Of a stretch of DNA of 64,000 nt, positions 4,463 to 13,879 are shown piece by piece. Within the stretch, counting starts at the first letter, position 1; every line of letters starts with the position of its first letter. The translations under genes were made by a program, and so were the position numbers. The notes beneath the pieces are model-generated. The model did no database searches. It was not told the origin of the DNA and saw only the letters and a program-made list of their open reading frames with translations. Origin of the DNA: Pseudemcibacter aquimaris (lineage in GTDB: Bacteria; Pseudomonadota; Alphaproteobacteria; Sphingomonadales; Emcibacteraceae); assembly GCF_028869115.1 (NCBI RefSeq), contig NZ_CP079800.1, forward strand, positions 372,001-436,000. The letters run 5' to 3'.

Positions 4463-4529
<67 letters not shown>

Positions 4530-4539
<10 letters not shown>

Positions 4540-4579
4540 TTAATAAAGGGGACACCTTCTAGGTGTCCCCTTTATTAAT
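4530..4579 (+). repeat. 50-bp direct repeat, copy 1 (tRNA 3' end plus terminator)
   Basis: These 50 bases start within the acceptor stem of tRNA-Arg (GGGCGCGCCA) and run through the downstream hairpin. They recur at 4728-4777 with two substitutions, both at the hairpin tip. The repeat therefore carries the end of the tRNA together with its terminator. Confidence 0.85.
4539..4579 (+). terminator. Hairpin terminator after tRNA-Arg
   Basis: A 19-bp perfect stem, ATTAATAAAGGGGACACCT paired with its complement at 4561-4579, closed by a 3-nt loop. The 3' arm ends in TTTATTAAT, giving a short T-rich tail. A-rich sequence on the 5' side means it could terminate on both strands. Confidence 0.8.
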
Positions 4580-4727: not shown

Positions 4728-4777
4728 GGGCGCGCCATTAATAAAGGGGACACCTTCCGGGTGTCCCCTTTATTAAT
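4728..4777 (+). repeat. 50-bp direct repeat, copy 2 (with second terminator hairpin)
   Basis: This copy differs from copy 1 at two positions, both near the loop. The second hairpin (4737-4754 with 4760-4777) is intact. No functional tRNA precedes this copy. After it, to 4921, I see only AT-rich upstream sequence for the AraC-type gene. Confidence 0.85.
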
Positions 4778-5752: not shown

Positions 5753-7216
5753 ATGACAAAAAAATACGATTTTAATGAACCCGAATCCTTAAATCTGCCA
5801 CCAGGTCAGATGAAGAAATTGGGGTACCAAGTTATTGATATGATTGTTGATCATATTGCCAATATTGAAGAAAAGCCGGTCCATAATTATCAAAATCGAT
5901 CGATTTATAATTCAATGTTAGAAACTAGTTTGCCCGAAAATGGTATGGACCCTTCCCTGATATTGGAACAGGTTGATAAGGATATTCTTACCGGGATCAC
6001 GCACACTGACCATCCTCGTTTTTATGGATACGTCCCTGGGTCAGGTAATTTTATTAGTACGCTTGCTGACGCAATAAGTTCTGGGTTTAATATTTTTGCT
6101 GGGCACTCATTCGTTGGGTCCTCTGCTGCAGCTGTTGAGGCAATGACCTTGGATTGGCTCAGACAATTGATGAATTTTCCTATCGAAACGGCTGGGGTTT
6201 TTGTAAGTGGTGGTTCAATGGCAAACCTTACAGCATTGCATGCAGCCAGAACACATGTTCTAGGAAGCCCCACTGGACATGATCCCGCACTTGTTGTTTA
6301 TGGAACCTGTCAAACTCATTCAACCATAAAGAAGGCTCTTAAGATTTTAGGTTTTTCTCCTAACCAATATAAAGTTATACCTGTTGATGAAGACCTCTCT
6401 ATGAAAATGGATGTTTTAAGAATAACTATTAAGCAGGATATTGAAAATGGCCTCAAACCTTTTGTAGTTATTGCCACAGCAGGAACTACAAGCAGTGGTG
6501 CAATAGACCCATTATATGAGATGAGAGCAATCTGTGATCAGTATAGTTTGTGGATGCATGTTGATGGTGCTTATGGTGCTGCGGCCTATCTTACTAAAAA
6601 AGGTAAGAAACTATTAGCAGGCCTAGAAATGGCAGACAGTCTGGCACTTGACCCACACAAATGGTTGTTCCAACCATATGAAATTGGCTGTTTGTTAGTG
6701 CGAAATGGTCATTTGCTGAAAAATGCATTTTCCATGGAGGCGGAATATCTTCGAGAAGCAAAAGAAGTATTGGATGGTAGTATCGAAGCCGAGTATTATT
6801 TAAGTAAAGAAATAAATTTTTTCGACTATGGGCCACAACTAACACGATCTTTTCGGGCGCTAAAATTGTGGATGTTTTTTAAAACCCATGGTGTAAAACA
6901 ACTGACAAAATGCATTGAACGAGGGATCTTAATAGCAGAAGAAGTAGCACACCATATTAATATTTCAAATGATTGGGAAATCGTCACGAAGCCCTCCATA
7001 GGTGTTTTAAATTTCCGATCAAAAGAAAAAGAAAACCGCTGCGAGAAAAAAATGCGTAGCGCTGTCGAGGGCCTGCTTAACGATGGATTTGCATTGATTA
7101 CAACAACAGAAATTTACGAGGAGAAGGTATTCAGATTATGTCTCATTAATCCGAACGTCAAATATGATGATGTGATACATAGTCTTAATCTATTAGCTTC
7201 ACTTCATATCGAATAA
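5753..7216 (+). CDS. PLP-dependent group II decarboxylase, aromatic-L-amino-acid decarboxylase-like
   Basis: The 487-aa enzyme has the fold and length of the AADC/tryptophan/glutamate decarboxylase family, which turns amino acids into amines plus CO2 in the cytoplasm. The PLP lysine is Lys303 in DPHKW. His189 (TCQTHS) should stack on the cofactor ring, and Asp271 (HVDGAYG) should contact the PLP nitrogen. The N-terminal HPRFYGYVPGSGNF segment forms part of the substrate pocket in this family. Substrate cannot be read: tryptophan, tyrosine/DOPA, phenylalanine or 2,4-diaminobutyrate are possible. A decarboxylation-coupled aldehyde synthase is also possible. It probably forms an operon with the AraC gene. 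No amino-acid/amine antiporter lies beside it, unlike acid-resistance decarboxylases. Confidence 0.85.
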   Translation: MTKKYDFNEPESLNLPPGQMKKLGYQVIDMIVDHIANIEEKPVHNYQNRSIYNSMLETSLPENGMDPSLILEQVDKDILTGITHTDHPRFYGYVPGSGNFISTLADAISSGFNIFAGHSFVGSSAAAVEAMTLDWLRQLMNFPIETAGVFVSGGSMANLTALHAARTHVLGSPTGHDPALVVYGTCQTHSTIKKALKILGFSPNQYKVIPVDEDLSMKMDVLRITIKQDIENGLKPFVVIATAGTTSSGAIDPLYEMRAICDQYSLWMHVDGAYGAAAYLTKKGKKLLAGLEMADSLALDPHKWLFQPYEIGCLLVRNGHLLKNAFSMEAEYLREAKEVLDGSIEAEYYLSKEINFFDYGPQLTRSFRALKLWMFFKTHGVKQLTKCIERGILIAEEVAHHINISNDWEIVTKPSIGVLNFRSKEKENRCEKKMRSAVEGLLNDGFALITTTEIYEEKVFRLCLINPNVKYDDVIHSLNLLASLHIE

Positions 7217-7223
7217 ATAAATT

Positions 7224-7300
7224 ATACGCGTAGCTCAGCTGGATTGAACAAAGGGCTTCTAATCCGTAGGTCGAGGGTTCGAATCCTTCCGGGTACACCA
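7224..7300 (+). pseudogene. tRNA-Arg(TCT) remnant / duplicate
   Basis: These 77 nt align along their whole length with the tRNA-Arg at 4463-4539. From the anticodon loop (about 7256) to the T-arm end the two are identical for 38 nt. The 5' half is damaged. The acceptor stem has mismatches at pairs 1 and 5, the D stem reads GCTC/GAAC, and the anticodon stem reads AAGGG/TCCGT with an A-G mismatch and a G-T pair. The encoded CCA survives. It is probably not a working tRNA. Either it is a decayed tandem duplicate or the far attachment site of an old tRNA-targeting element. Confidence 0.8.
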
Positions 7301-8474: not shown

Positions 8475-9686
8475 TTATGCTTTGGCTTTGTTCAGCTTTT
8501 TTCTGCCAAAAGTAAAAATCAATAATGTAACGATGCCACATACCATAAAACTGGTGACGAGTGGTTCTACAGTTCCGTTATACATTTGCCCGACGATTGC
8601 GCCAACAATTACTGCGAAAAAAGTTTGAATGGCGCTCATCACGGAAGTAGCAACGCCAGCCATATGACCGAAAGGCTGCATCGCCATACTGTTAAAGTTT
8701 CCGTACAAAGGCGCTATGCTGAAAAATGTTGTCGATAAATATATCATCAGCATCGCAAAGGACATTTCATGATTATTGATTTGCAAATAACCGAAAAATA
8801 AGATGCTGGTTATAGTCAGTGTCGATAATGAGAAAAGACAAATTGTTTCCATAGAATATTTGGAAAGTAATTTTGAATTCAAGAATGAAGATGCGCCATA
8901 TACAAAAGCCTGAATACCAAAATATACGGCAAACATATCACCGACATTATATAGGCCCTGCATAATCTGGGCCGATGTATTTAAATAAGCAATGAATGAT
9001 CCAAAAACTATACCGGAAGCGATGGTGAATGAAATCGAAACAGGATTGGTGACAACTTCAATCGTTCTCGTGGCAATTCTAAATAATGTAAATGGATGTC
9101 TTCCTTCGGGGGCGAGTGTTTCATATTGTCTGAAATGAAACCACATAATCGCGCTAAAACCGAATAAGAACATAAAGCCAAAGATATATTCCCATCCGGC
9201 AAAAAATAATATGAATTGTCCTACGGATGGTGCCAGTGCGGGAACCAAAATGAATATCATCATGATTAGCGACATAAATTTGGCCATTTCGGCCCCTTCG
9301 AAACGGTCGCGAACCATGGCAACGGTGATGACACGACAAGCTGCACCACCGAATCCTTGTAAGAACCTGCCTACTAACATAATGGTGAGGTCGGATGCCA
9401 TTATGGAAATAACATCACCGATTAGAAATAGCGTTACACCAATATAAAGAATTGGTTTTCTTCCATAAGCATCGGAAAGTGGTCCATAAAATAGAAGTCC
9501 CGCTGACATACCAAAGAAAACAAATGAAATAATCCATTGGCTGTCGTTTAAATCCATGATGTTGATGTCGTCTGCAATATTGCTTAATGCAGGAAGCATT
9601 GAATCAATCGCGAGTGCGACCAATGACATAATCACTGCCATTAACGCAATAAATTCACGGTCTGATATTTTTGGCTTAGTGGTCAT
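8475..9686 (-). CDS. MFS transporter, Bcr/CflA-type multidrug efflux family
   Basis: The 403-aa membrane protein has about 12 hydrophobic segments. The cytoplasmic loop motif GPLSDAYGRKP between TM2 and TM3 and MVGRFLQGFGGAACRV in TM4-TM5 are typical of the DHA1 drug:H+ antiporters close to Bcr/CflA. Substrate is unknown. It lies upstream of the dioxygenase gene on the same strand, so the pair may be one transcript. A LexA-type box sits 80-95 nt upstream in the divergent intergenic region and could affect this promoter too. Confidence 0.85.
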   Translation of the reverse strand: MTTKPKISDREFIALMAVIMSLVALAIDSMLPALSNIADDINIMDLNDSQWIISFVFFGMSAGLLFYGPLSDAYGRKPILYIGVTLFLIGDVISIMASDLTIMLVGRFLQGFGGAACRVITVAMVRDRFEGAEMAKFMSLIMMIFILVPALAPSVGQFILFFAGWEYIFGFMFLFGFSAIMWFHFRQYETLAPEGRHPFTLFRIATRTIEVVTNPVSISFTIASGIVFGSFIAYLNTSAQIMQGLYNVGDMFAVYFGIQAFVYGASSFLNSKLLSKYSMETICLFSLSTLTITSILFFGYLQINNHEMSFAMLMIYLSTTFFSIAPLYGNFNSMAMQPFGHMAGVATSVMSAIQTFFAVIVGAIVGQMYNGTVEPLVTSFMVCGIVTLLIFTFGRKKLNKAKA

Positions 9687-9764
9687 TCGTGGCTCTTTTT
9701 TATCGTTTCTTTATTCATATGTGGAATTGATCAAAACAACAAACATATAATGAAAAAAATACAT

Positions 9765-9779
9765 GTTCTCATTTTGTTC
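9765..9779 (+). promoter_or_regulatory. Candidate LexA (SOS) box GTTC-N7-GTTC
   Basis: GTTCTCATTTTGTTC matches the alphaproteobacterial LexA consensus GTTC-N7-GTTC exactly, including the TC and T-rich spacer often seen. It covers the -35 region of a promoter whose -10 TATAAT is at 9801-9806, upstream of the small ORF at 9847. This is where a repressor should sit. The bare motif would be expected about twice by chance in 64 kb, so context is what supports it. Confidence 0.55.
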
Positions 9780-9800
9780 TTGATTTATTCATATTATTAG

Positions 9801-9806
9801 TATAAT
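9801..9806 (+). promoter_or_regulatory. Promoter -10 TATAAT for the small ORF
   Basis: A perfect TATAAT lies 40 nt upstream of the start codon of the 48-aa ORF. A possible -35 is TTCTTG at 9777-9782 with an 18-nt spacer, overlapping the second half of the LexA-type box. Confidence 0.45.
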
Positions 9807-9846
9807 GTTCTTGTCAATAATAATAAAAATAATGAACAGGAGAGAT

Positions 9847-9993
9847 ATGATGCTTATCACCTATAAACAAAAGAAACTGTGCTTCCAAAAAGGATTATAT
9901 AAATGCCCGGTACCACCGGGTGAGATCAGCCGCTTTTGGACAGATGTTGATTGGTGTCGTCATATTGATGCGTATGGTGAATGGTGCCATTAA
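9847..9993 (+). CDS. 48-aa protein of unknown function, possibly SOS-regulated
   Basis: I do not recognise this protein. It opens at tandem ATG codons (9847, 9850) behind a very good Shine-Dalgarno (CAGGAGAG) and encodes a basic, Cys- and Trp-containing peptide starting MMLITYKQKKLCF and ending DAYGEWCH. There is no signal peptide or membrane helix. Its stop overlaps the end of the convergent homocysteine methyltransferase gene by 4 nt. A TATAAT and a LexA-type box precede it. SOS-induced microproteins that stop cell division are known in alphaproteobacteria (SidA of Caulobacter), but no sequence likeness is claimed. Confidence 0.5.
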   Translation: MMLITYKQKKLCFQKGLYKCPVPPGEISRFWTDVDWCRHIDAYGEWCH

Positions 9994-10937
9994 AACTGAA
10001 TGCAAGCTTTTGCGGCTTCGAACACATGACGATGATCGGTGCCGCAACATCCACCAATAATTTTAATTTGCGGGTTAACGGCTAAAATTTCCCTGTATTC
10101 CTGGCCAAATTCAACCGGATTTCCATCATCCAGCTCTTTTGAATTATCCAGTTCCTCGTGACTGCATTTTGAGGCATTTGCACGAATACCAATAAGTCGA
10201 TCTTTCCATGCGCCGTCTTCTTTTAACATATGTGAAAAATGTGTGGGGTGGGCACAATTGATCATATAATAGGCTGGATAGGCATTTGAATTTTCGTCAA
10301 CCTTTTCAATGGCTTCTTTTATGCTCATACCGGTTGGCAAATTGCCATCGGTTTCAACGGTGAAGGAAACGGCAATCGGCATGCCGATCTCTTTGGCAGC
10401 AAGAACGATACCGATTGTTTCTGGTGTATTCGTCATTGTCAACGCAGAAACAATATCTGTTTCGCTGTCAAAGAATGACCTAATCTGTGCGCTGTGATAT
10501 TTTTTGGCTTCTTCTATGCTTATTGGATTTCCCGGGTCATAACCATCACCACGCGGGCCAAGGCTGCCACTGATGACAATCGGCATATTTTCTGTTTCCA
10601 GCTTATCGCGAATTTCAATTAAATAACGGATTACTTTTTTAACGACGCCGTCAACAGCATCAGGGGTATCATATCCGAACTTGGCACCCCAATCGTTATT
10701 AGCACGCCATGTAAGGCCACCTAATATAAAGCCAGCATTATGTTCGGCGGCAATATCGGTATATTTTTTAAAATAATCCTGGATGAATTTTTCCATGCCC
10801 GGCTTTTTTAAAAGCTCGAATGTTGCGAAATGGGGAATATCAATTCCATGATGGAATATAAAATCTGTTTCCATTCCACCATCAGTCAGAAAATATCTGC
10901 CATCGGAGAATGGTAAATTGCTACGATATTTGCTCAT
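9990..10937 (-). CDS. Homocysteine S-methyltransferase family protein
   Basis: The 315-aa protein is a zinc-dependent methyltransferase barrel of the MmuM/betaine-homocysteine type. It begins with TDGGMETDFIFHHG, holds the zinc cysteine in INCAHP near residue 228, and has the paired zinc cysteines GGCCGTDHRH near residue 295. These three cysteines bind Zn and activate the homocysteine thiol. The methyl donor could be S-methylmethionine, SAM or a betaine and cannot be read. It lies 6 nt downstream of the metallohydrolase on the same strand, hinting at a shared sulfur-metabolism transcript. Confidence 0.85.
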   Translation of the reverse strand: MSKYRSNLPFSDGRYFLTDGGMETDFIFHHGIDIPHFATFELLKKPGMEKFIQDYFKKYTDIAAEHNAGFILGGLTWRANNDWGAKFGYDTPDAVDGVVKKVIRYLIEIRDKLETENMPIVISGSLGPRGDGYDPGNPISIEEAKKYHSAQIRSFFDSETDIVSALTMTNTPETIGIVLAAKEIGMPIAVSFTVETDGNLPTGMSIKEAIEKVDENSNAYPAYYMINCAHPTHFSHMLKEDGAWKDRLIGIRANASKCSHEELDNSKELDDGNPVEFGQEYREILAVNPQIKIIGGCCGTDHRHVFEAAKACIQF

Positions 10938-10943
10938 GAAAAA

Positions 10944-11807
10944 TTAAAGCGCATCAACCGGAATTTTAATATATGAAATGCCGTTGTCTTCTGCTGGTGG
11001 CATGTCGCCAGCTCGCATATTGACCTGCACAGACGGAAGGATCAATTTCGGCATACTCAGTTCTGCATCACGGGCCGTTCTTGCGGCAATATACTGTTCG
11101 CGTGATTTACCCGCGATATGAATATTTTTTTCTTTCTGTTCTTTAACGGATGATACCCATTTATAGGCGCGCCCACCCGGCGCATAATCATGACACATGT
11201 AAAGCGTCGTATCATCTGGTAACGATAGAATACGTTGAAGACTATCAAAAAGCTGCGCCGCATCACCGCCTGGAAAATCGCAGCGTGCAGTACCAAAATC
11301 TGGCATAAACATAGTATCACCGACATAACAATCACCATCAATGACATATGAAATACATGCAGGTGTATGGCCCGGTGTATGAAGAACTTCTGCTTTTAAA
11401 TTGCCGATGGTAAAAGTTTCACCATCTTTAAAAAGGTGATCAAACTGGCTTCCGTTTGTTGCGAATTCTTTTTCAGCGTTGAAAACATCACCAAATGTTT
11501 TTTGAACTGTTTGTACGTGTTCGCCAATCGCAGTTTTGCCGCCAAGTTTTTCTTTTAAATATGGGGCACCTGATAAATGATCCGCGTGGACATGTGTTTC
11601 TAAAATCCAGTCACATGAATATCCATTATCATTGATGTGTTGAATGACTTCGTCTGCTGATTTGGTTGATGTTCTGCCTGACGCCTGATCATAATCAAGT
11701 ACACTATCAAGAATAGCGCACTTGTTTGTCTCTTTATCGGCAATCACATAGGTGACGGTGAAGGTGTCTTCGTCAAAAAAGGCTTTTACATCGGCGGAAT
11801 TTGTCAT
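10944..11807 (-). CDS. ETHE1/Blh-type MBL-fold persulfide dioxygenase-like hydrolase
   Basis: The 287-aa metallo-beta-lactamase-fold protein carries THVHADHLSG (HxHxDH metal motif, near residue 96), HTPGHTPA, and VGDTMFMPDFGTARCDFPGG in its second half. The last is close to the persulfide dioxygenase group (ETHE1, Blh). These are mononuclear iron enzymes that oxidise glutathione persulfide to sulfite. No rhodanese domain is fused. I use the ATG at 11807; an in-frame TTG at 11813 is less likely. It probably forms an operon with the homocysteine methyltransferase gene. An FNR-type box about 100 nt upstream suggests oxygen or redox control. A generic glyoxalase II-like role is the alternative. 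Confidence 0.8.
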   Translation of the reverse strand: MTNSADVKAFFDEDTFTVTYVIADKETNKCAILDSVLDYDQASGRTSTKSADEVIQHINDNGYSCDWILETHVHADHLSGAPYLKEKLGGKTAIGEHVQTVQKTFGDVFNAEKEFATNGSQFDHLFKDGETFTIGNLKAEVLHTPGHTPACISYVIDGDCYVGDTMFMPDFGTARCDFPGGDAAQLFDSLQRILSLPDDTTLYMCHDYAPGGRAYKWVSSVKEQKEKNIHIAGKSREQYIAARTARDAELSMPKLILPSVQVNMRAGDMPPAEDNGISYIKIPVDAL

Positions 11808-11906
11808 TTTCAAAACTCTCTAAAAGTTGGAATAGCTATAACTTAACGTGCAATTTATTGCATAAAAAATCAACTTTGTATTTTAACTATTCTGCCCCTT
11901 AATTCT

Positions 11907-11999: not shown

Positions 12000-13310
12000 T
12001 TACAAAATAAATTTGGATAGGTCGGTTGTATCCACAAGATCACCGATATGATCTTTGATGTATTTTGCATTAATGGTAATCTCGGTTTCTGCCATATCTG
12101 TTGCTTCGAAACTAATCTCGTCAAGGATACGTTCAAGCACCGTATGAAGACGGCGTGCGCCGATATTTTCCACATTTTCATTGATGTTCGCCGACATGCG
12201 GGCAATCTCTGCAATACCGTCATCGGTGAAGTTCAGTTTCACATCTTCTGTGCCAAGTAACGCCACATATTGCTTAATCAAGCTGAAGTCCGGTTCAACA
12301 AGAATATGTTTAAAGTCATCTTCGGTAAGCGCATCAAGCTCAACACGAATTGGAAGACGGCCTTGTAATTCAGGTAATAGGTCAGATGGCTTTGCCACTG
12401 AAAAGGCGCCTGATGAAATAAACAGGATATGATCCGTTTTTACGTTGCCGTGTTTTGTGGATACCGTACATCCTTCAATCAACGGTAATAAATCACGCTG
12501 AACGCCTTCGCGGCTAACTTCACCGCTGTTTCGGTTTGCTTTACCGGCGATTTTGTCAATCTCATCAATAAATACGATGCCTGATTGTTCGGTCGTTTCG
12601 ATGGCTTCGCGGATGATGCCGTCTTCATCAATTAGCTTATCCGCTTCATCACCGACAAGCACGTCATGTGCTTCTGCAACGGTCATTTTTTTCTTTTCGG
12701 TTTTTTGACCGAAACCACCACCAAGCAGATCACCAAGGTTTAACATACCCATGCTGGCGCCCGGCATGCCCGGAATGTCAAAGGATGGCATATTTGCAGT
12801 TTGGCTTTCAACAACGTCGACTTCGATTTCTTTGTCGTCTAGCTGACCTTCACGAAGCATTTTTCTGAATTTCTGTCTTGTATCTGCGCTTGCTGTTTCA
12901 CCGACAAGGGCATCAAGAACGCGTTCTTCTGCGGAAAGTTCCGCTTTACTGGTGACTGTTTTCTTTTTCTTTTCACGGATCAGTGCGATTGAAATTTCCA
13001 TCAAATCACGGATGATTTGTTCAACATCGCGGCCAACATAACCCACTTCGGTGAATTTGGTTGCTTCGACTTTAACAAACGGGGCATTAGCAAGTTTTGC
13101 AAGTCTTCTTGAGATTTCCGTCTTACCAACACCAGTTGGCCCGATCATAAGAATGTTTTTTGGAAGTACTTCTTCCTTCATTTGATCATCAAGTTGCTGT
13201 CTGCGCCAACGGTTTCTTAGGGCGATTGCAACGGCGCGTTTGGCTTTATTCTGACCAATAATATAACGGTCGAGTTCGGATACGATTTCACGTGGTGAAA
13301 AAGATGTCAT
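12000..13310 (-). CDS. hslU: ATP-dependent protease ATPase subunit HslU
   Basis: AAA+ unfoldase that feeds substrates to the HslV peptidase chamber in the cytoplasm. At 436 aa it matches the family. Walker A is [11 protein letters not shown] near residue 57 and Walker B is VFIDEIDK near residue 248. The pore-loop region GYVGRDVE lies just after residue 90, and the I-domain is the variable stretch between about 110 and 240. The C-terminus ends LSKFIL, the hydrophobic tail that docks into HslV. It follows hslV by 17 nt in one operon. Confidence 0.98.
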
Positions 13311-13327
13311 TATATTTTAATCCAATA

Positions 13328-13879
13328 TTATTTAGTGTCTAATGTTTCAACGGTAAGATTGTCATTGGTATATACGCAGATGTCAGCGGCGATACCAAGT
13401 GAACGTCTGCCAATTTCTTCTGCGTCCAAATCCTGATCCATTAATGCTTTCGCTGCGGCGAGGGCGAAATTACCACCAGAGCCAATGGCAATAATGCCGT
13501 CAGCTGGTTCAAGTACATCACCATTACCGGTAAGAATAAGCGATACATCTTTATCAACCACGGCCATCATGGCTTCCAGTTTTCTTAGGTATCTATCGGT
13601 ACGCCAATCTTTTGCCATTTCAACACAAGCACGTGTTAATTGGCCGTTATATCTTTCAAGTTTTTCTTCAAGTCTTTCAAATAATGCAAAGGCATCGGCC
13701 GTTGACCCGGCAAAGCCGGCGATAACGTTTCCATCACCGATTTTACGCACTTTTCTTGCGTTTGCTTTAATTACAGTATTTCCAAGTGACACTTGGCCAT
13801 CGCCAACGATGACAACTTTGTCACCTTTTCGCACGCTGAGTATCGTCGTGCCGCGCCATCCTTTTGGTTGTTCGCTCAT
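13328..13879 (-). CDS. hslV: ATP-dependent protease peptidase subunit HslV
   Basis: N-terminal-nucleophile threonine protease, a proteasome beta-subunit relative forming double hexamers with HslU. After a short propeptide ([10 protein letters not shown]) comes [11 protein letters not shown], whose first Thr becomes the catalytic N-terminal nucleophile. GDGQVSLG and the Lys that activates the Thr (RKVRKIGDG) are present. At 183 aa it is normal size. It is first gene of hslVU and divergent from hisB across 181 nt, a familiar alphaproteobacterial arrangement. Confidence 0.98.

Follow-up and report, generated by a model that had tools for sequence, protein, structure and literature searches.

Upstream of a short open reading frame (ORF) in the genome of Pseudemcibacter aquimaris lies a LexA-type motif, GTTC-N7-GTTC. 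This raises the questions whether the ORF is a gene under SOS control and what the encoded protein might do. An earlier note, made from the sequence alone, suggested an SOS-regulated microprotein of 48 amino acids without recognised relatives, possibly acting on cell division. We followed this up in the window, i.e. the whole stretch of 64,000 nucleotides that was analysed, and by comparison with bacterial genomes and phage records. The features concerned are, with positions in the window:

8475-9686, minus strand: divergent MFS transporter, which could share the operator (named from its translation)
9765-9779, plus strand: LexA-type operator GTTCTCATTTTGTTC (GTTC-N7-GTTC), with an exact N7 pair in eight of nine promoters of the genus
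9780-9785, plus strand: -35 element TTGATT abutting the operator, as TTGACA does at lexA
9787-9790, plus strand: ATTC continuing the 11-bp register of the operator, possibly a third half-site, with a presumed role only
9801-9808, plus strand: -10 region, either TATAAT at 9801-9806 (spacer 15) or TAATGT at 9803-9808 (spacer 17)
9838-9842, plus strand: ribosome-binding site AGGAG; in all eight orthologues for which upstream DNA is available it lies 6-7 nt 5' of the start
9850-9993, plus strand: 47-aa protein of the T4 gp55.4 family (start read earlier as 9847, giving 48 aa)
10944-11813, minus strand: MBL-fold hydrolase, a syntenic neighbour (named from its translation)
12000-13310 and 13328-13879: hslU and hslV, beyond the MBL gene (named from their translations)

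The box, the perfect TATAAT and the strong ribosome site described in the earlier note are all present, and the coordinates given there are right. The proposed overlap between box and -35 does not hold, as the best-read -35, TTGATT, begins directly behind the box. The 17-bp partner of this hexamer in the window is TAATGT, and TATAAT lies at a spacing of only 15. A generic promoter scan did not call a promoter at 9780-9808, and an Rfam search over 9600-10100 returned nothing at gathering scores. Of the eight orthologous promoters, all except that of L009, i.e. seven (L002-L008), have the pattern TTG(A/C)T(T/A)-N17-TATAT(G/A) directly 3' of the box.

Across nine promoters, pairwise identity of the 19-bp box region amounts to 87%, whereas four stretches of the same length immediately 5' of it reach 28-37%. 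As the best box match of each promoter served as anchor, the comparison somewhat favours the box; L010, situated at a contig end, was left out. The third half-site reads ATTC in seven of the nine promoters and GTTC in L009, and is absent in L007. Two promoters show further peculiarities: the first half-site of L003 is GTAC, and the exact pair of L009 corresponds to the second and third half-sites of the other promoters, with an unrecognisable promoter pattern behind it.

The bare motif by itself carries no weight. As the earlier note had cautioned, chance matches are not rare: three were found in the window where 1.38 are expected, a number reached by 18 of 100 shuffles. Genome-wide, the motif is not enriched (62 sites compared to 78 for the reversed control), and we therefore rejected it as evidence for an SOS box. 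In the literature, GTTCN7GTTC is given as the alphaproteobacterial LexA motif, and GTTCttgttatGTTC as common to two Caulobacter SOS genes (PMC3091678, PMC12700426).

More specific information was obtained from the boxes at repair genes of the same genome, GTTCTTATTTTGTTC between uvrA and ssb, GTTCTTGTTTTGTTC 5' of dinB and GTTCTTTGTTTGTTC 5' of comM. These four genes are named from their translations. Using a matrix built from the three boxes, the site at 9765 ranks fourth of the 62 genome sites, directly after the three source boxes, and first among all positions of the window. The extended motif GTTCTNNTTTTGTTC occurs 24 times in 12 congeneric genomes, compared to five times for the reversed control. 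Of these sites, five precede dinB, five the orthologue of the ORF and two a pair resembling umuDC (a match to S24 peptidases followed by a Y-family polymerase); nine lie between uvrA and ssb, and three elsewhere. The last three, away from known SOS genes, are L173 (G002), L190 (G011) and L191 (G009); the L173 site overlaps the start of a gene which, judged from its translation, encodes an SPFH/HflC-like protein.

The lexA gene of the same genome carries GTTCTCATTTTTGTTC followed directly by TTGACA, i.e. the same junction with the -35, with 8 bases between the repeats; a second GTTC pair at this gene has 6 bases between the repeats. At recA, GTTC half-sites with a spacing of 4 were found; the 701 bases examined there contain no exact N7 pair. 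Spacings other than 7 at recA (L097) and lexA (L093) are odd for the expected heads of the regulon. Either the N7 rule is not strict or both genes are controlled slightly differently; these deviations speak against a simple SOS picture. Two other loci were noticed in this genome. The sequence GTTCTAATTATGTTC at C1:1368742 (L083, G000:C1:1367000-1371000), accompanied by further GTTC/GAAC half-sites, lies 150 bp 5' of a gene for a secreted phosphatase-like protein, possibly a further SOS gene. A second LexA-like repressor is encoded at G000:C1:914692-914880 (L094); the stretch examined at this gene contains no N7 box.

We regard LexA control of the gene for the 47-aa protein, and with it SOS regulation, as very likely. 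This judgement is based on the extended motif, its other targets at uvrA/ssb, dinB and the umuDC-like pairs, and the conservation of box and promoter, and not on the bare motif. The regulatory part of the earlier suggestion is thus strongly supported by sequence comparison.

The reading frame 9847-9993 is present as described in the earlier note, but its length of 48 codons has probably to be corrected: the orthologues start at the second methionine, which is located 7 nt behind AGGAG, so that translation probably begins at 9850 and yields 47 amino acids. In protein searches, the ORF was detected in the genome of P. aquimaris and in nine of the 12 other genomes of the genus (E 1.5e-16 or better). 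The three of the 13 genomes without it are G002 (99% complete), G008 (96%) and G012 (53%). G008 gave a match at chance level only, leaving G002 and G008 as two near-complete genomes without the gene; in both, a close copy of the MBL-fold neighbour is missing as well. Among 86 other relatives, the best match of the protein search (E 0.0027) was judged to be chance.

Nine named contigs carrying the ORF are labelled Kordiimonadaceae, Emcibacteraceae or only Alphaproteobacteria. All nine have hslU/hslV downstream, eight have the MBL gene, and seven have the MFS transporter upstream; of the two without the transporter, one contig starts inside the ORF and the other 465 bases before it. In the window, the box and the start of the transporter gene, which is read from the opposite strand, are 79 bp apart, and a gene at 9990-10937 is convergent with the ORF, tail to tail, with an overlap of 4 bp.

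For nine complete sequences, compared over the last 45 codons with L010 dropped, the mean pN/pS is 0.17 over 36 pairs (maximum 0.28). Synonymous sites are strongly diverged, with pS values of 0.65-0.91 in the eight pairs that include the window gene. By these sequence measures, the ORF is a kept gene under purifying selection. Box and peptide are thus conserved in relatives, a check listed in the earlier note, and the refuting outcome it had named, conserved flanks around an ORF that is not, was looked for within the genus and not encountered.

Some other features of the window are worth recording. Two tRNA-Arg(tct) genes at 4463-4539 and 7224-7300, 2.76 kb apart, are identical at 66 of 77 positions, and the ORF 5753-7216 between them reads like a PLP-dependent decarboxylase. 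A stretch of 50 nt at 4530-4579, comprising the 3' end of the tRNA and a hairpin resembling a terminator, occurs again 198 bp further on at 4728-4777 with 96% identity, which looks like a scar left by an insertion at the end of the tRNA.

The protein has relatives after all, contrary to the earlier note: it belongs to the T4 gp55.4 family, PHROG 1871, matching phrog_1871 over profile positions 1-44 of 45 with an E value of 7.6e-14. The match to the Pfam family DUF5484 (PF17583; E 5.6e-5, 23.2 bits) stays below the gathering cut-off of 27, which is reached by three orthologues; in a control search a match below the cut-off was also obtained in Thermotoga maritima. No match was found in NCBIfam. 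By tblastn, 978 phage records were matched at E values up to 1, the best direct match being weak (E 5e-3). Where the examined phage records name the gene, e.g. in T2, it is called 55.4. Since the single tblastn matches are weak, a profile built from phage sequences only was used in the reverse direction. It recovered 10 of the 13 genomes of the genus, P. aquimaris included, with E values of at most 6e-9; the remaining 47 of the 60 genomes gave a single weak match (E 0.0066), which contains a stop.

Eight residues (G16, Y18, P23, W31, W36, D41, G44 and W46) are invariant in 15 host and phage sequences. The AlphaFold2 model (mean pLDDT 87.6, pTM 0.66) comprises helices at 6-15, 25-28 and 33-43 and two short strand segments. 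Foldseek found four viral proteins with a probability of 1.00 and E values of 8e-4 to 0.02; searches of the PDB by sequence and fold gave no useful match, one of the fold comparisons having re-aligned only 7 chains. The hydropathy values (mean -0.41, highest 19-residue mean -0.12) indicate no transmembrane segment.

All clear relatives found outside the genus come from phages, and no genome searched beyond this one genus carries the host gene. Searched with phrog_1871, samples of 385 and 398 Alphaproteobacteria/Pseudomonadota genomes, which are sparse and evidently contain no other carriers of the genus, yielded only P. aquimaris itself. In a separate search, weak matches outside the genus, one in G144 (4.9e-4 over 24 residues) and 11 others at 0.04-0.1, were judged to be chance and discarded. 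No plasmid relatives were found with three queries. As the outside relatives are all from phages and the host gene occurs in one genus, capture of the gene from a phage would be the simpler reading of the sequence distribution, drawn from a set in which prophages of other bacteria are thinly sampled.

A hint at function comes from phages of the genus Cbunavirus (Schitoviridae), in whose DNA polymerases a gp55.4-type domain forms the last residues. The whole polymerase of 903 aa matches phrog_1871 at residues 871-901 with an E value of 3.2e-10, and the tail alone with 9.3e-12. We observed this tail in L152, L158, L159, L194 and L195; at 60% identity or more it is present in 17 phage records, and two IMG/VR contigs carry it as well, one of them at 69% identity, with the signature residues kept. 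Among the 40 polymerase relatives listed out of 1,992 records, the alignment stops at residue 851-867 in eight of the nine with more than 40% identity, and at 685 in the ninth, which is a split record. The polymerases of N4, Pa2 and Vibrio phage 2.130.O end 5, 16 and 2 codons past the aligned part, respectively, and the annotated polymerase gene of VBP47 ends before the end of the aligned part. Because these four lack it, we take the Cbunavirus tail to be an added module. On the other hand, the alignment of the general polymerase profile phrog_17 extends to residue 901, so that some other members may have extensions. The fusion was seen in one phage lineage only.

In other phages the domain is encoded by a gene of its own. 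In T2, this gene is flanked by those for sigma factor 55 and nrdH; in an Alteromonas phage, a primase is encoded two genes ahead of it and a helicase two genes after it; in two N4-like phages it comes immediately after an RNA polymerase gene; and in two other phage records it lies near one end, among small unknown genes. One annotation suggested a fusion to the RNA polymerase in N4-like phages; we rejected this, since the domain is encoded by a separate ORF directly after the RNA polymerase gene. Most neighbours of the free domain in phages have no assigned function, and ten proteins encoded next to it in uncultured phages gave almost no named function, with one match to a family called ATPase.

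RecA-driven cleavage of LexA after DNA damage is the established way of SOS switching. In the mechanism we propose, LexA at rest would occupy the GTTC-N7-GTTC box abutting the -35 and block RNA polymerase. After DNA damage, RecA-driven cleavage of LexA would free the promoter, and the soluble 47-aa protein would be made from its strong ribosome site. The free protein may then act as a docking adaptor for a replication protein, a DNA polymerase or a partner of it, and its binding may alter replication during DNA repair. What leads us to a replication adaptor is the occurrence of this domain as an extra C-terminal tail of the Cbunavirus polymerases. Points against the proposal are the deviating spacings at recA and lexA, the bare motif not being enriched, the three extended-motif sites away from known SOS genes, the two near-complete genomes without the gene, the restriction of the fusion to one phage lineage, the weak direct tblastn matches and the missing PDB match. 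The chances that a phage-type, replication-linked adaptor is released by LexA after DNA damage fall, in our estimate, slightly short of even. A replication-linked target of the protein, suggested by analogy to the fusion, we consider nearly as probable as its opposite. The phage origin of the host gene, the replisome target and the direction of the effect we only infer.

Other explanations have to be weighed against this one, two of them concerning the operator. It might serve mainly the divergent MFS transporter, with the small ORF a by-product or separately controlled, which is suggested by the short distance between box and transporter and by the transporter adjoining the ORF in seven of the nine named contigs. 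The conserved -35/-10 pair behind the box faces the ORF, however, and the ORF itself is conserved and selected, making a transporter operator very unlikely. Alternatively, the box could have arisen by chance in front of a constitutive small protein free of SOS control. The missing enrichment of the bare motif and of an exact N7 pair in the recA stretch read would fit, but with box and promoter conserved and the extended motif found at other SOS targets this is most improbable.

With regard to function, a damage-induced peptide stopping the divisome has precedents in Caulobacter: according to PMC4211646, SidA and DidA are very small and induced by DNA damage, SidA through LexA, which matches the small size and likely SOS control of our protein. 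The same source describes both as transmembrane proteins, whereas the 47-aa protein has no such segment and is a member of a phage family in which a fusion to DNA polymerase occurs. The only functional lead points to a DNA polymerase, and the action on cell division suggested in the earlier note found no support; we still grant it a small chance, since a soluble protein could act on division, too. Action on invading or resident phages or on host takeover functions (exclusion or counter-defence), switched on along with prophage induction and not directed at host replication, is a stronger rival than division inhibition. The relatives found outside the genus are all in phages, with gene positions in the T4 early region and in a T7-like early region. 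Yet no prophage genes adjoin the ORF, its place by hslUV is stable across the genus and the gene is under purifying selection, so that we rate this reading as unlikely, though well worth keeping in mind.

Compared to known systems, our preferred candidate, the LexA-controlled replication adaptor, shares length, the signature residues G-Y-P-W-W-D-G-W and the predicted fold with the T4 gp55.4 family. It differs in that its gene belongs to the chromosomal core and carries a LexA-type operator, instead of being a phage gene, and the proteins of the genus contain extra conserved Cys residues. The domain is the same as that of the Cbunavirus polymerase tail, which is fused to a family-A polymerase, whereas the host protein is free. 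With uvrA, ssb, dinB and lexA the gene shares the type of operator, and with lexA the abutment of box and -35; these genes encode known repair proteins, in contrast to the 47-aa protein, which has no known function.

In the openly accessible literature we found no paper on DUF5484 or gp55.4, and no prior link between a gp55.4-type phage family, the tail of a DNA polymerase and an SOS gene of bacteria. New are a gp55.4-family protein encoded by a probably LexA-controlled core gene and a polymerase fusion pointing to replication. More tentatively, a phage replisome module, free in T4-like phages and attached to the DNA polymerase as a tail in one phage genus, may have been domesticated by the host and placed under LexA control, so as to reshape replication in the course of the SOS response, with the gp55.4 family being widespread modulators of polymerase or replisome; we take this to be possible rather than probable. 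SOS microproteins, whose alphaproteobacterial examples SidA and DidA are membrane proteins, would be joined by a soluble protein of phage type. With a predicted inducing condition and a likely partner indicated by the fusion, the function of gp55.4 would become directly testable.
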